Source of the DNA: Parvularculaceae bacterium
GTDB taxonomy: Bacteria; Pseudomonadota; Alphaproteobacteria; Caulobacterales; Parvularculaceae
Reading direction: 5' to 3'
Length of the DNA stretch: 64,000 nucleotides
Assembly: GCA_021776475.1 (NCBI GenBank)
Contig: JAJFFV010000005.1
Coordinates: forward strand, 186,001-250,000
Below are positions 2,120-60,007 of this stretch, piece by piece. Position numbers and translations under genes: made by a program. The notes under the pieces are model-generated. The model had not been told where the DNA came from, did no database searches, and saw nothing but the letters and a program-made list of their open reading frames with translations. Position 1 is the first letter of the stretch. Each line of letters starts with the position of its first letter.

Positions 2120-3448
2120 ATGTCCAAATCCTTCGATCTGATTCTCAAAAACGGCACCGTGATCAACCATGACGGCGAGGGTCTGCGGGATGTTGGCGTG
2201 ACCGCTGGCCGGATTGCGGAAATCGGCACTCTTGGTCGTGCGAGTGCCCGTGAGACGATAGATTGTACCGGTCTTCATATCCTTCCCGGCGTCATCGATT
2301 CACAAGTACATTTCCGCGAACCCGGTAATGAGTATAAGGAAGACCTTGAAAGTGGTAGCCGCGCGGCGGTTATGGGCGGTGTGACGGCAGTGTTTGAAAT
2401 GCCCAACACCAATCCGTTGACGACCACCGCTGCTGCGATCAATGATAAACTCGCCCGCGCCACAGATCGGATGTGGTGCGAGCACGCGTTTTATGCCGGC
2501 GCGACCCACGAAAATGCCCGCGACCTGGCCGAGCTTGAGCTCCTGCCCGGCGTGTGCGGTGTCAAGATTTTCATGGGCGCTTCCACCGGCGACCTGCTGG
2601 TACCCGATGATGACGGCGTACGCGAAGTTTTGCGCCACGGCAGGCGCCGGGTGGCAATCCACTCCGAGGATGAAGAAATTCTGCGCAAAAACCAGGTTCT
2701 GGCACGACAGGGTGACTGGACTTCCCACCCCGAGGTGCGCTCGGCTGAAGCGGCATTGCGTTGTACCGGGCGACTGATCGCGATCGCTCGCGAGGTGAAA
2801 CGTCGGATTCACGTTCTGCACATTTCGACCGCCGACGAAATCCCGCTGCTCGCGGCCAACAAGGACATCGCGACCGCTGAAATTACGCCCCAGCATCTGA
2901 CGTTGGAAGGCCCTGAGGTCTATGAACGCCTCAAAGGATATGCGCAGATGAACCCGCCGATCAGAGACGCCTGGCATCGGCGGGGCCTGTGGCAGGGCCT
3001 GGCGCAAGGGGTCTTTGATGTCATCGGCTCCGACCACGCACCGCATACTTCCGAAGAAAAATCAATGCCTTACCCAGCGTCGCCGTCAGGGATGCCGGGA
3101 GTTCAAACCCTCGTACCGGTGATGCTGACCCACATCGCCGAGGGCCGGTTATCGCGCGCGCGCTTTGTTGATCTTGTCTGTCACGGGCCTAACCGGATTT
3201 TCGGCATTGCCGGCAAAGGCCGTATCGCCGCCGGTTATGACGCTGATTTTACCTTGGTAGATTTGCAGGAAAAGCGTACAATATCGAGTGAATGGATCGA
3301 GTCTACATGCGGCTGGACCCCGTTTGCTGGGATGGAATGTAAAGGCTGGCCTCGGGGGACAATCATTCGCGGCCAGCGTGTGATGTGGGACGGAGAGTTG
3401 GTTGGCACCGCGAGCGGCCAGCCGATCCGGTTCCAGGAGAGTTTGTAG
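2120..3448 (+). CDS. dihydroorotase-family amidohydrolase
   Basis: Amidohydrolase-superfamily enzyme of 442 residues, expected to interconvert carbamoyl aspartate and dihydroorotate in pyrimidine synthesis. Visible: the VHFREPG strand near residue 60, GVKIFMGAS with the lysine that is usually carboxylated, the HSEDE histidine, HVLHIST histidine, and GSDHAPH with the catalytic Asp. The first metal motif, normally HxH, reads QVH here, a variation I recall in an alphaproteobacterial clade annotated as dihydroorotase. I chose ATG at 2120; a TTG lies two codons earlier. No pyrB gene is adjacent, so hydantoinase or allantoinase-like activity remains possible. Confidence 0.82.
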   Translation: MSKSFDLILKNGTVINHDGEGLRDVGVTAGRIAEIGTLGRASARETIDCTGLHILPGVIDSQVHFREPGNEYKEDLESGSRAAVMGGVTAVFEMPNTNPLTTTAAAINDKLARATDRMWCEHAFYAGATHENARDLAELELLPGVCGVKIFMGASTGDLLVPDDDGVREVLRHGRRRVAIHSEDEEILRKNQVLARQGDWTSHPEVRSAEAALRCTGRLIAIAREVKRRIHVLHISTADEIPLLAANKDIATAEITPQHLTLEGPEVYERLKGYAQMNPPIRDAWHRRGLWQGLAQGVFDVIGSDHAPHTSEEKSMPYPASPSGMPGVQTLVPVMLTHIAEGRLSRARFVDLVCHGPNRIFGIAGKGRIAAGYDADFTLVDLQEKRTISSEWIESTCGWTPFAGMECKGWPRGTIIRGQRVMWDGELVGTASGQPIRFQESL

Positions 3449-3467
3449 AGAAGCAGTAGGGGGCTTC

Positions 3468-3941
3468 ATGCGTGCAACAAGTCTGATAGCGATTTTCTTG
3501 GCCGTGCAATTGATTTTGCCGGCAGCAGCAGGTGTCAGGGCCCCGGAACCGCAGGACGACAATCTGGCGCCGCCGGGATATAGCATTATCGCCTCCGGCA
3601 ATGCCGCGCTTTTGGTCAAGCGCACTGAAAATATTCTAATCCTCGATGTGCGATCGGCAACCGCATACGAACGCGGCCACATCAAAGATGCGGTCAATCT
3701 CGATCTTGCTGAACAGGATTTTGAGCGGCAGCTCAACAAGCTCGACAGCACTAAACCGATTCTTGTCTACAGCGATATTGATCCGCCGACCAATGAAACT
3801 CACTCAGTTTTGCATTCGGCAGGCTTTGACACGATCATTTACCTGCGCGATGGATTTCGAGGTTGGCAACTCAACAGTCTGCCGATCGAGACAGGCGGCG
3901 AGCCGTTCAGGTTTGATTCAAGCGCACGCGGGATTGACTGA
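3468..3941 (+). CDS. secreted rhodanese-like domain protein, catalytic Cys absent
   Basis: A 157-residue protein starting at ATG 3468 behind a GTAGGGGG ribosome-binding site, 19 bases after the dihydroorotase stop. An N-terminal signal peptide (hydrophobic run to about residue 20, AAAGV) sends it to the periplasm. A rhodanese fold follows: ILDVRSATAYERGHIKDAVNLD near residues 56-77 and GFRGWQL near 130. The loop that should hold the active-site Cys reads VYSDIDPPTNET, so sulfurtransferase chemistry is unlikely and a binding role is more plausible. Function unknown beyond the fold. Confidence 0.82.
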   Translation: MRATSLIAIFLAVQLILPAAAGVRAPEPQDDNLAPPGYSIIASGNAALLVKRTENILILDVRSATAYERGHIKDAVNLDLAEQDFERQLNKLDSTKPILVYSDIDPPTNETHSVLHSAGFDTIIYLRDGFRGWQLNSLPIETGGEPFRFDSSARGID

Positions 3942-3953
3942 TGTAGCAATCGA

Positions 3954-4403
3954 TTAGTTAGTTACGTCCTCATCTTCCGAGTAGTAATCATATCCTTCAA
4001 TAGTATTGAATGGTGACGCAAGGCGAGCTGTCAGAACGGTGCCCTCTTTTGCAAGCCGCCGCCGTTCCGTTTCGGTTTCCGCGCTGCAACTTTGATAGGC
4101 CGCTTTGGTAGACTGAAATCCGTTATTGAACGCCGCAACCATTTTGCTTTTTGTTGCTTCTGGCGGCTCCTCCAATGCCACAAGCTCCTTCATGCGGTCA
4201 CGAAACCGGTCCGGCAAATAATCATAGGGCTGACAGGTTATGTGCATGTGGTGCATGCGACCGAGAAGACGCGCCATTTCAACCAGTTGATCCTGGCGTT
4301 CGGCGAAAGAATAAAATTCCGGCACAGTTTCGCCGCTCCCTTCGGGTGTAACCGGCGCCGTCTGAAACAGGGCCGCCGCAATAAATAAAACCGAGTAGAT
4401 CAT
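3954..4403 (-). CDS. TIGR02301-like secreted protein
   Basis: A 149-residue protein with an N-terminal signal peptide (MIYSVLFIAAALFQTAPV). The conserved pieces LLGRMHHMHITC and FNNGFQSTKAAYQSC resemble the alphaproteobacterial TIGR02301 family of unknown function; the two Cys residues could form a disulfide in the periplasm. Its start overlaps the stop of the upstream serine hydrolase gene by four bases (ATGA), so the two are translationally coupled. The family call rests on remembered pattern, not a search. Confidence 0.68.
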   Translation of the reverse strand: MIYSVLFIAAALFQTAPVTPEGSGETVPEFYSFAERQDQLVEMARLLGRMHHMHITCQPYDYLPDRFRDRMKELVALEEPPEATKSKMVAAFNNGFQSTKAAYQSCSAETETERRRLAKEGTVLTARLASPFNTIEGYDYYSEDEDVTN

Positions 4404-55948: not shown

Positions 55949-57520
55949 TTAAGCGGCTCTGGCCGCATCATCAAACAGTCGCTGGGCCTGTTCTCCGGCC
56001 TGCTCTCCAGAAAGGCGACCGATGAGTGCAATCACATGCACCGACATCTTGACGGTCTTCAGCCTATCATCACCAGCAGAGCCACGAATAACCTTCAGCA
56101 GCTGATCCGCAAAGCCATCGATTTCTTCTGCTGCACGCTGTTTTGCGCGTTCATACAATTGCACCTGGTCAAGCGCTGCAGCGGTGCTGCCGGCGGTGGC
56201 AAGAAAGGCCGCAGCGGCGAGCGCTTCATCGATGAGCGCCTTGCGTTCTTGTTCGCGGAATATCCAGGCTGTATCGGGCTCAAAAGTACTGTCCTGCCCG
56301 GTCGCCAAAGGTAAGACTTCATGGATGGCCGTAAGTGCATGTTTGAACAATCTTGCCAGTATCTCGCCGCCCTTGACGATCACCGGCTGCAGACGGTCTT
56401 TTAACAAGGTGTTGTCGCTCAGTGTCTCAATCTCAGCACAGAGGCCACCAACGAGGGCAGAAAACGCCATTAACGCGTCTGAGGTTTCAGGACGGAACGC
56501 GCCCTGCAATACCAGGCGTTCGAGCCATTCAGGCTGGGCGGTCACGAGTGCCAGCAAATGATCTGCGATCAGACAACTCTCGGCGCCGCGCGATAGCTTG
56601 GCGCCGCGTAATTGCTCCTGCAAGTGCAGGGCCCGCCACGGTTCCGCCATATAGGACAGGACCGACAACTGCAGATAACCCGCCATCGCTGGATTGAGCC
56701 GCGCTTCATCCGTAATGATGGCTGCGATTTTTTTGATATCGGGCTCGGCAAATTTGACGATAAGAGATTTCACCTTAGCGAAAGCTTCTGACAGACGGGC
56801 ACCAAGAGGCAGCAAGGTCTGGAATTCGAACAGATCACCCAGAATCGGGTTTGACCCAAGACGGCTGATAAGCGCTCGGCGGATTGCCGGGTCTTCACGT
56901 GAACGGCTGGTGAGATCATCGAGGACGCCGCGGGCGGCTACGTGCATCTGCTCTGTAATCTGACGGTAAAATGCCTCGTCACCCGGCTCTGAAAGAACTT
57001 CTGCTTTGATCCAGGCATCGCGAATCACCGATCCGGACGCCTCCTCATTCAAAAGACGCCAGATCGCCGGCAACGAGGTTGAGCAAATGTATCCATCGAG
57101 CCGTGGCTGGTATTTTGGCGGGTCGATGATCAGGGGCTCAAATGGCCCAAAAAACGCGTGCATGGCGTTGCGCGGCGGCTCATATGCCCGTGTCGTTGCG
57201 TCTCCAACAATCTTGACCGCTTCTTCGAGGATGAGCGGCTCGTTGTCGGCAAGCGCCGCGACGGCGCCGTTCTCTTGATGTGAACGATCTTCTCCAACCG
57301 GCTCCGGTGCAGGATCTGGTGCAGCAAAATCAGGATCGGTGAGCGTTAGTCCACGCGTTTCAGCCGCCTCTTCCAGAAGACCGATCATCGCGCCATAGGG
57401 CAGACCATCAGGATCGTTGTCAGCACCAAATTCCATCGCCAGACGCAACTGCCTGAGCACTGCCTCAGGCACAGCATCAAACAGGATACGCAACTTTTGT
57501 ATTTTGCGGGCGTCGGTCAA
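55949..57520 (-). CDS. DUF2336 domain protein
   Basis: A 523-residue helical cytosolic protein typical of DUF2336 in alphaproteobacteria. It opens with a conserved-looking helical domain, followed by an acidic/variable linker near 60-85, and then several amphipathic helices to the end. No enzymatic motif is seen. Members are implicated in regulation in the literature only loosely; role unknown. It stands between degP and the YHYH remnant. Confidence 0.7.
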   Translation of the reverse strand: MTDARKIQKLRILFDAVPEAVLRQLRLAMEFGADNDPDGLPYGAMIGLLEEAAETRGLTLTDPDFAAPDPAPEPVGEDRSHQENGAVAALADNEPLILEEAVKIVGDATTRAYEPPRNAMHAFFGPFEPLIIDPPKYQPRLDGYICSTSLPAIWRLLNEEASGSVIRDAWIKAEVLSEPGDEAFYRQITEQMHVAARGVLDDLTSRSREDPAIRRALISRLGSNPILGDLFEFQTLLPLGARLSEAFAKVKSLIVKFAEPDIKKIAAIITDEARLNPAMAGYLQLSVLSYMAEPWRALHLQEQLRGAKLSRGAESCLIADHLLALVTAQPEWLERLVLQGAFRPETSDALMAFSALVGGLCAEIETLSDNTLLKDRLQPVIVKGGEILARLFKHALTAIHEVLPLATGQDSTFEPDTAWIFREQERKALIDEALAAAAFLATAGSTAAALDQVQLYERAKQRAAEEIDGFADQLLKVIRGSAGDDRLKTVKMSVHVIALIGRLSGEQAGEQAQRLFDDAARAA

Positions 57521-57664
57521 ATCTTCCCCATCCAGGCAGGCCCATCACGGGCAGAGTTGGCTATTCAGCCTTCTTGACTAGGCCCGTTCGGGCACGCTTC
57601 GCAACAGGAGGGTTTCGTCACAAGATCATCATGAAATCATTCAGCGCCGCGACCGCACCTAGTA

Positions 57665-57960
57665 TTATGGCGCGGCAAACTGCAGAAGCCAGGTCAATCT
57701 CGCGGGCCGCCGCGCATCAGGTGGGCTATCAGGCTGGATAAAGTCCGTTGACGGGGTGCCTTTGAAGCAGCGCGGGATGATCGGCCATTCATGGGTCAGG
57801 TAAGAAGCTTAAGTCCCGTCCGGGAATTGCGCGGCCCTCAATATTCGTCATCGGCTACAAATGTCCCATCGTAGGTGCCGCCGGGATCAGAGGCGGTGGC
57901 ATCCGACCATCCGTAGGCCGCATAGACCGGAGCGCCATCGGCGGCCCAGCCGACCAGCGC
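57665..57960 (-). pseudogene. decayed YHYH-domain protein gene fragment
   Basis: On the minus strand, beginning right after the CbpA-like stop, a 40-codon frame reads LVGWAADGAPVYAAYGWSD and then GGTYDGTFVADDEY before TGA at 57840. In another frame downstream come AQFPDGT, a TAA, and then THEWPIIPRCFKGTPSTDF and on to TAA at 57665. These blocks, in order, match the YHYH domain (GWA.DG.P.Y..YG.SD; GGTYDGTF..DYEY; FP.GT; P.IPRC.KGTP), with an internal deletion, a frameshift and a stop. Proteins of this family are exported and of unknown function. No intact upstream part is present here. Confidence 0.78.
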
Positions 57961-58914
57961 CTAGCTCTTCATCCTGGCCCGAGGATTCTGGTTTTTGTCA
58001 CCCCGCCAATTTGAAATGAACTGTTCAAACTCTTCGTCAGCTGTATCAGGCAACACAATTTTGAGCCGGACGATCTGATCCCCGGCACTACCCGTCTTGC
58101 TGTTTTTAAGCCCCTTGCCCTTCAAACGCAGTGAGGTGCCCGAGCTCGATCCCTTTGGCACCGTGACCGAAACCTCACCATGTACCGTCGGCACGATGAT
58201 CTTGGCGCCGAGCACTGCTTCCGACAAAGTGACCGGTATTTCCACATGGACATTGTCGCTTTCAGCTTCAAAAAAACGATGTGGTCGCAGCGTTACTTCA
58301 ACATATACATCGCCGGGCGGGCCTCCCTTGATGCCGGCCTCGCCCTGGCCGCGCAGGCGTAAGGTCTGGCCATCGCGCAGACCTGGAGGAATGGTCACGT
58401 TAAGGGTTTTGCCGTCAGGCATTGTCACCCGTTTGGTCACCCCGCGCGCCGCCTCAACAAAATCAACCTCCATACGGTATCGCGCGTCCCGTCCCTGCAT
58501 CGGCCCTGCCTGACGCCGGCCACCGCCAGCGCCGCCCATGCCGCCAAACATTTCAGAAAATATATCGCCGATATCTTCAAATCCCTGACCGCTAGCGCCG
58601 CCGCGGTAGCCGCCATTGGCCTGGCGCGATTGGTAGGCGCCGCCGGCAAAAGGCCCGCCGCGCTGATTGCCATTGGCATCGATTTCGCCGCGATCATATT
58701 TCGCGCGCTTTTCCTTATCGCCAACAATATCAAATGCAGCGGAGGTGGCTTTGAATTTCTCTTCGGCTGCCGCATCACCAGGATTTATGTCTGGGTGATG
58801 TTTTTTTGCAAGCTTCCGATACGCCGCGCGGATCGCCTTGGCATCAGCCGATTTGCCAACTCCCAGCACTGAATATGGATCGCGCGCCAATTTCTCGTCT
58901 TTCCTGCTATACAT
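57961..58914 (-). CDS. cbpA: DnaJ-family co-chaperone, CbpA-like
   Basis: A 317-residue J-domain protein. J domain at about 10-75 with PYSVLGVGKSADAKAIRAAYRKLAKKHHPDINPGDA and the HPD motif near residue 38; then a Gly/Arg-rich region (about 80-140) and the C-terminal client-binding domains (about 150-300; FVEAARGVTKRVTMPDG, DVYVEVTLRPHRFF). It lacks the zinc-finger, so it is type II (CbpA-like) and would work with DnaK. The following 3' flank holds the YHYH remnant. Confidence 0.92.
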   Translation of the reverse strand: MYSRKDEKLARDPYSVLGVGKSADAKAIRAAYRKLAKKHHPDINPGDAAAEEKFKATSAAFDIVGDKEKRAKYDRGEIDANGNQRGGPFAGGAYQSRQANGGYRGGASGQGFEDIGDIFSEMFGGMGGAGGGRRQAGPMQGRDARYRMEVDFVEAARGVTKRVTMPDGKTLNVTIPPGLRDGQTLRLRGQGEAGIKGGPPGDVYVEVTLRPHRFFEAESDNVHVEIPVTLSEAVLGAKIIVPTVHGEVSVTVPKGSSSGTSLRLKGKGLKNSKTGSAGDQIVRLKIVLPDTADEEFEQFISNWRGDKNQNPRARMKS

Positions 58915-59065: not shown

Positions 59066-60007
59066 TTATTCTCCGGCCCAGCGCCGGAGTTGTTCCAGAT
59101 CATAAAGTGACCGGTGTTCAGCGGCACTCAAGCTCGTTTCAGCTAAGATCAGTTGCGCTTGAATATCAGAGATCCCTGCCACTGCAACAGCAGAATTCCC
59201 GCCGAGCAGAAACCTCACATTGCTAGATTGGCGTGAAAGCATTTCGAGCATCGCTCGCTGATCTGACAGATCGGCCGCCGCATAACGCTCATACATCAGG
59301 CCCAGCATATGTTGTGCACTGACGAGCAGAAAAGCGGCCGTTTCGGTGTCATCGCGTCGCGCTGCTTCTTCAGCAGCGCTCAGTACACGCCTGACATCGT
59401 TAATGGCGTTTGAGACAGTGCGTCTGTCTTGCCCTGCGGGACAGGCTGTTCGATCAAGGTGGGAGACATAAGCAACAAGCCCGTCGATCACGGCACTAGA
59501 CGCCTCGCCCTGAAACTCTTCTTCAACGGCGCTGCCGATGAAATCATGAAGGGAGGTCTTCGGCGTGGTTGACCCAAAGCTTGCCCGATCACCAATATCA
59601 AGTAAAACCGGGATCGGCACAGGATTGAAAACGCCGTCTTCGCGCACTTTGCTGAACATGGAGGTCGTTACATCTGCCGTGCCCGGTGTGTCGCTTATGC
59701 CAGCCACCAGAAAGTCTGGATTGTCGTGTCCATTGCGATGACAGCTGTCGCAGGAGAGTTCCCTGCGGGCAGCCTGTCCACCGAATAAAAATGGGCTCTT
59801 GAAAGCCGCACGGCCAACTTCGACGAGATACTGGTTTTCGGCATCCTCAGCCAGGCGAAGGCATTCACCGGGCGCGGTTGCAAGGAACGCCGCAACATCC
59901 GTATCCGGCCCAAGCCAGCTTGTTTCGGTCAGTGTCGCCTCATCCGCTGTTGCGGCGCAAACAAAGCTGCCCAAAAACGCAACCGTCAGCGCCGCCCGGC
60001 GCAACAT
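59066..60007 (-). CDS. secreted monoheme cytochrome-like protein
   Basis: A 313-residue exported protein with signal peptide (LRRAALTVAFLGSFVCAATA). One c-type heme site, SCDSCHRNGH near residue 85, within a region resembling MauG/cytochrome c peroxidase folds (LFGGQAARRELSCDSCH, NPVPIPVLLDIGDR). A second CxxCH is absent, so a diheme peroxidase is unlikely. The C-terminal half is helical. It follows a TPR protein with TAATG overlap, an operon. The electron partner is unknown. Confidence 0.75.
   Translation of the reverse strand: MLRRAALTVAFLGSFVCAATADEATLTETSWLGPDTDVAAFLATAPGECLRLAEDAENQYLVEVGRAAFKSPFLFGGQAARRELSCDSCHRNGHDNPDFLVAGISDTPGTADVTTSMFSKVREDGVFNPVPIPVLLDIGDRASFGSTTPKTSLHDFIGSAVEEEFQGEASSAVIDGLVAYVSHLDRTACPAGQDRRTVSNAINDVRRVLSAAEEAARRDDTETAAFLLVSAQHMLGLMYERYAAADLSDQRAMLEMLSRQSSNVRFLLGGNSAVAVAGISDIQAQLILAETSLSAAEHRSLYDLEQLRRWAGE

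Follow-up and report, generated by a model that had tools for sequence, protein, structure and literature searches.

The window, a stretch of 64,000 nucleotides, carries on its minus strand an intact dnaJ/cbpA-type co-chaperone gene with a native 3' end (57961..58914) and the gene of a 523-aa protein that matches no Pfam or NCBIfam family (55949..57520). Between the two, at 57960-57737 on the same strand, three collinear pieces, together about 65 codons long, can be aligned with YHYH proteins (Pfam PF14240). Piece 1 (ALVGWAADGAPVYAAYGW; 57907..57960) corresponds to residues 262-279 of an intact 381-aa protein and immediately abuts the dnaJ stop codon; piece 2 (SDPGGTYDGTFVADDEY; 57841..57891) is in the same frame, 20 codons closer to piece 1 than in the intact gene, and ends at an in-frame TGA; piece 3 (FPDGT, a TAA stop and ASYLTHEWPIIPRCFKGTPSTDFI; 57737..57826) lies in another frame behind a net 43-bp deletion. 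The original prediction had described ordered YHYH blocks in two frames, and all four are present on the minus strand: LVGWAADGAPVY and GGTYDGTFVADDEY share one frame (57960-57841), which is that of dnaJ just past its TAG (57963-57961), as had been noted for the first block, and FPDGT and WPIIPRCFKGTP, separated by the TAA, share a second one (57826-57737). The extent originally given, 57665-57960, held for 57737-57960; YHYH homology stops at about 57737, and 57665-57736 is merely the open tail of the piece 3 frame. The tail and spacer up to the 523-aa protein gene (57521..57736, minus strand) cannot be aligned and showed no terminator-like or promoter-like site and no Rfam match. The protein encoded at 59066-60007 combines a putative signal peptide with a CxxCH motif (CDSCH) and is possibly a c-type cytochrome; its only Pfam match, to PPE, is weak and under the cut-off.

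Pieces 1 and 2 match PF14240 at an E-value of 8.8e-5 and piece 3 at 0.038, both under the curated Pfam cut-off; the remnant scores 23 bits against a cut-off of 25 (22.7 bits in another profile search) and so falls short of the score expected of a functional YHYH protein. When the whole genome was searched at E<=10 with a custom profile of 12 intact YHYH proteins, three matches were obtained, all at the remnant and in profile order (136-162, 185-201 and 212-254; E-values of 7.7e-5, 0.129 and 1.8e-9), and no second intact copy. Of the 1,778 fragments obtained by six-frame translation of the window, just two fell under an E-value of 2, both from the remnant (1.2e-9 and 5.7e-8), followed by the next-best fragment at 2.5. 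The PF14240 matches, the ordered matches across the whole genome and the ranking of the six-frame fragments exclude a chance origin of the resemblance; the blocks do match YHYH proteins, on which the original prediction stood or fell. The remnant keeps the conserved residues G265, A268, D269, G270, P272, Y274, D312, G313 and D318 of the family, and piece 3 the conserved PxxPR stretch, but it differs from other members in comprising only about 65 of 381 codons, in the loss of all conserved histidines, and in its frameshift and stops. A DNA match in another genome (G091; E 5.8e-4, 32 bp) was judged to be due to chance, as its flanking sequence is unlike that of YHYH genes; the genome also has no PF14240 match.

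Intact YHYH genes of 381, 381 and 398 aa occupy the same slot on the same strand in three of the five congeners (G001, G003 and G005, respectively), flanked by orthologues of the dnaJ/cbpA gene of the window and, on the opposite side, of its 523-aa protein gene. The search among relatives for an intact copy and its original neighbour, proposed with the original prediction, thus recovered both, and the presence of an intact orthologue at the same place, as expected for a pseudogene, bears out its reading of the locus as a decayed gene. A profile search of six genus genomes (the five congeners and the source genome, which has only the remnant) found a single intact gene in each of G001, G003 and G005 and no YHYH gene in G002 and G004. 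By their inferred identity, G003 and G001 are Aquisalinus sp. MAGs (Parvularculaceae), and G004 and G002 are A. flavus and A. luteolus; the window would accordingly come from an Aquisalinus-like member of Parvularculaceae. In the Aquisalinus sp. MAGs CC_bin25 and CC_bin13 (L095 and L096), the neighbours, order and strand of the YHYH gene are the same as in the window, whereas the 381-aa frame is intact. In G005, a 222-aa YbjN-like gene (L005:2767-3435; PF10722, E 9.4e-8) sits between dnaJ and the YHYH gene; it is missing from this spot in G001 and G003, and the window genome has three distant relatives elsewhere and none at the dnaJ/YHYH slot.

The lesions were mapped by alignment against G003, G001 and G005, with all sizes relative to G003. 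The largest is a loss of 878 bp, made up of the 95 bp of spacer that follow dnaJ and the first 261 codons; it joins the dnaJ stop straight to codon 262, at a junction whose exact base is ambiguous. Where the intact gene has 25 codons between pieces 1 and 2, the remnant has 5 (60 bp lost, in frame); between pieces 2 and 3, there are 14 bp instead of 57 (net 43 bp lost, with a shift of frame). The stop inside piece 3 stands at the position of a tyrosine in the intact proteins. The stop and the frameshift had been predicted correctly, but the single deletion assumed with them turned out to be three. The remnant thus carries the disabling lesions of a pseudogene and has no open frame with a start codon, as a functional YHYH protein would need. 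It also lacks the conserved histidines required of such a protein: H148, H233, H241 and H243 (G003 numbering), invariant in the 12 intact proteins, all lie within the lost part, while one conserved aspartate, D269, is retained.

The continuation of the first block in the dnaJ frame would also be compatible with a live C-terminal extension of DnaJ, in which readthrough of the TAG adds 40 residues of YHYH sequence. Such agreement of frames, however, has one chance in three of arising by itself, and the TGA would cut off the product before the rest of the domain, with the conserved histidines all missing. Moreover, DnaJ ends in RARMKA in three congeners and in RARMKS in the window, with the stop in the same place, and what comes behind it in G003 is an unrelated spacer; an extension is therefore very improbable. 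The same shared residues and stop show that the end of DnaJ is native, and they dispose of one of the two options in the original prediction, namely that the 5' part of the YHYH gene had been replaced by the end of the co-chaperone; the other, that this part was lost, is correct.

It is similarly improbable that the remnant gives rise to a small live gene or RNA. The bias of changes towards third codon positions is still detectable, but this is to be expected from the time before decay. Pieces 1 and 2 have no start codon, a stop and a frameshift separate the pieces, and scans of the remnant for promoters (sigma-70 consensus only), terminators and Rfam RNAs found none. Short pieces might also reflect a chance resemblance or an assembly error, and a frameshift or a stop on its own could be a sequencing slip; yet the order and position of the pieces and the synteny match those of the intact orthologues, and a base-calling slip in a 1.8-Mb contig does not account for a loss of 878 bp and three more lesions, which leaves this explanation with next to no probability. 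Given the intact counterparts that three of five congeners carry at this position, the remnant at 57737-57960 is almost certainly a pseudogene of a gene encoding a putatively secreted YHYH-domain protein.

The YHYH gene has a patchy distribution at this locus. Taking the next gene of at least 150 aa on the same strand behind dnaJ as its neighbour, a 523-type gene directly follows dnaJ, without a YHYH gene, in 12 of the 15 genomes examined from the genus and family (gap of 14-145 bp), namely in two congeners and ten other genomes of the family. The remaining genomes have the YHYH gene (G001 and G003) or a YbjN gene and then the YHYH gene (G005) behind dnaJ. Sixteen regions had been fetched, and the 15 with a dnaJ were counted; G044, fetched for its YHYH gene, was left out. 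The identity of the 523-type gene was established by tblastn for 11 of the 12 genomes and by a separate search for G010. The 523-type protein, present in 29 of 61 related genomes searched, represents a conserved, unnamed neighbour of DnaJ.

In a tree of DnaJ, the species of the window groups with G001, G003 and G005 at a support of just 91/95; because of this value, the 523-type protein was added, and in the resulting tree of 11 genomes the same four are split from the others at 99.9/100. The placement of G003 differs between the trees (with G005 in the DnaJ-only tree, at a weak 82/71, and with G001 in the concatenated tree, at 97/97). The simplest account of this split and of the 12 genomes without a YHYH gene is a single gain followed by decay; probably the gene was gained in an ancestor of the window lineage and the three congeners and decayed in the window lineage. 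Less simply, the gene may have been gained earlier and lost in the pair of A. flavus and A. luteolus; gain and repeated loss were weighed by parsimony from few genomes. By the same parsimony, that common ancestor of the window lineage and the three congeners would have received the YHYH gene in the slot between dnaJ and the 523-aa-type gene. The 878-bp deletion would then have cut away the spacer along with the front of the gene, including its start, the putative signal peptide and every conserved histidine; a 60-bp in-frame deletion, a net 43-bp deletion with frameshift and the stop in piece 3, to which no order is assigned, would have added to the damage. Lacking a start codon, the remnant most likely yields no product.

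The original prediction had called the decay recent, which is plausible, although the codon positions of the sequence changes test it weakly. At sites invariant across the three intact genes, window-specific changes at codon positions 1, 2 and 3 amount to 11/60, 9/59 and 9/28 in the remnant and to 37/283, 28/295 and 61/142 in dnaJ. The ratio of positions 1 and 2 to position 3 is 0.52 in the remnant (95% range of about 0.27 to 1.0, from just 29 changes) versus 0.26 in dnaJ, which leans towards relaxed constraint in the remnant, and a third-position excess is still present. The ratio of the remnant lies between constraint and neutrality, as expected of a gene that remained functional along part of the branch. 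The DNA identity to G003 is 72.3% for the remnant and 72.2% for dnaJ; piece 3 shares 83% identity over 77 bp.

The YHYH domain is not known to have been studied by experiment, and nothing on this locus was found in the literature excerpts consulted. The intact proteins of the congeners start with what looks like a putative signal peptide. In a comparison of jumbo phages, the domain has been predicted to be a metal-dependent hydrolase with a triad of histidines and an aspartate binding zinc, although the relevant passage does not map these histidines onto H148, H233, H241 and H243 (PMC7824862). Based on this prediction and the putative signal peptide, the product of the intact gene would probably be a zinc-binding hydrolase located outside the cytoplasm. 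No solved structure of a relative was found by sequence at E<=1, and with a mean pLDDT of 32 from 3 rows, the AlphaFold prediction for the intact protein is unusable.

The phage baseplate and tail families PHROGs 2885, 2576 and 708 align with residues 254-354 of the intact protein, which is approximately the region represented in the remnant. PHROGs 2885 and 708, however, are named baseplate wedge subunits and are parts of large virion proteins, whereas the examined neighbours of the remnant include no phage genes. A 1271-aa protein encoded on an IMG/VR contig (L108:2611-6426) includes a YHYH-like region in which the HYH motif is seemingly absent (YFVDGSG instead), so that phage forms may be without the predicted zinc ligands. 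Two other IMG/VR contigs (L109 and L110, both at 3001-4044) have YHYH matches where no open reading frame of 150 aa was found, possibly representing intron-bearing eukaryotic DNA or decayed copies.

Counting the remnant in, PF14240 is matched in 8 of 100 genomes of relatives and in 30 of 289 genomes of a sample of the class (about one in ten), and of 72,556 plasmid records, 8 carry YHYH genes. The occurrences on plasmids and in virion proteins fit an accessory gene capable of movement. The spacer behind dnaJ might tentatively be regarded as a landing slot through which secreted accessory genes pass within the genus, with a single gain of a YHYH gene and its decay in the window, a YbjN-like gene acquired in G005 and an empty slot in the others; this reading is rather unlikely. 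The locus is an ordinary pseudogene of little importance beyond annotation, where 57521-57960 is best labelled a YHYH pseudogene instead of spacer or an extension of dnaJ. It provides one resolved case of gain and loss of an accessory family and suggests that YHYH proteins are dispensable in this genus.
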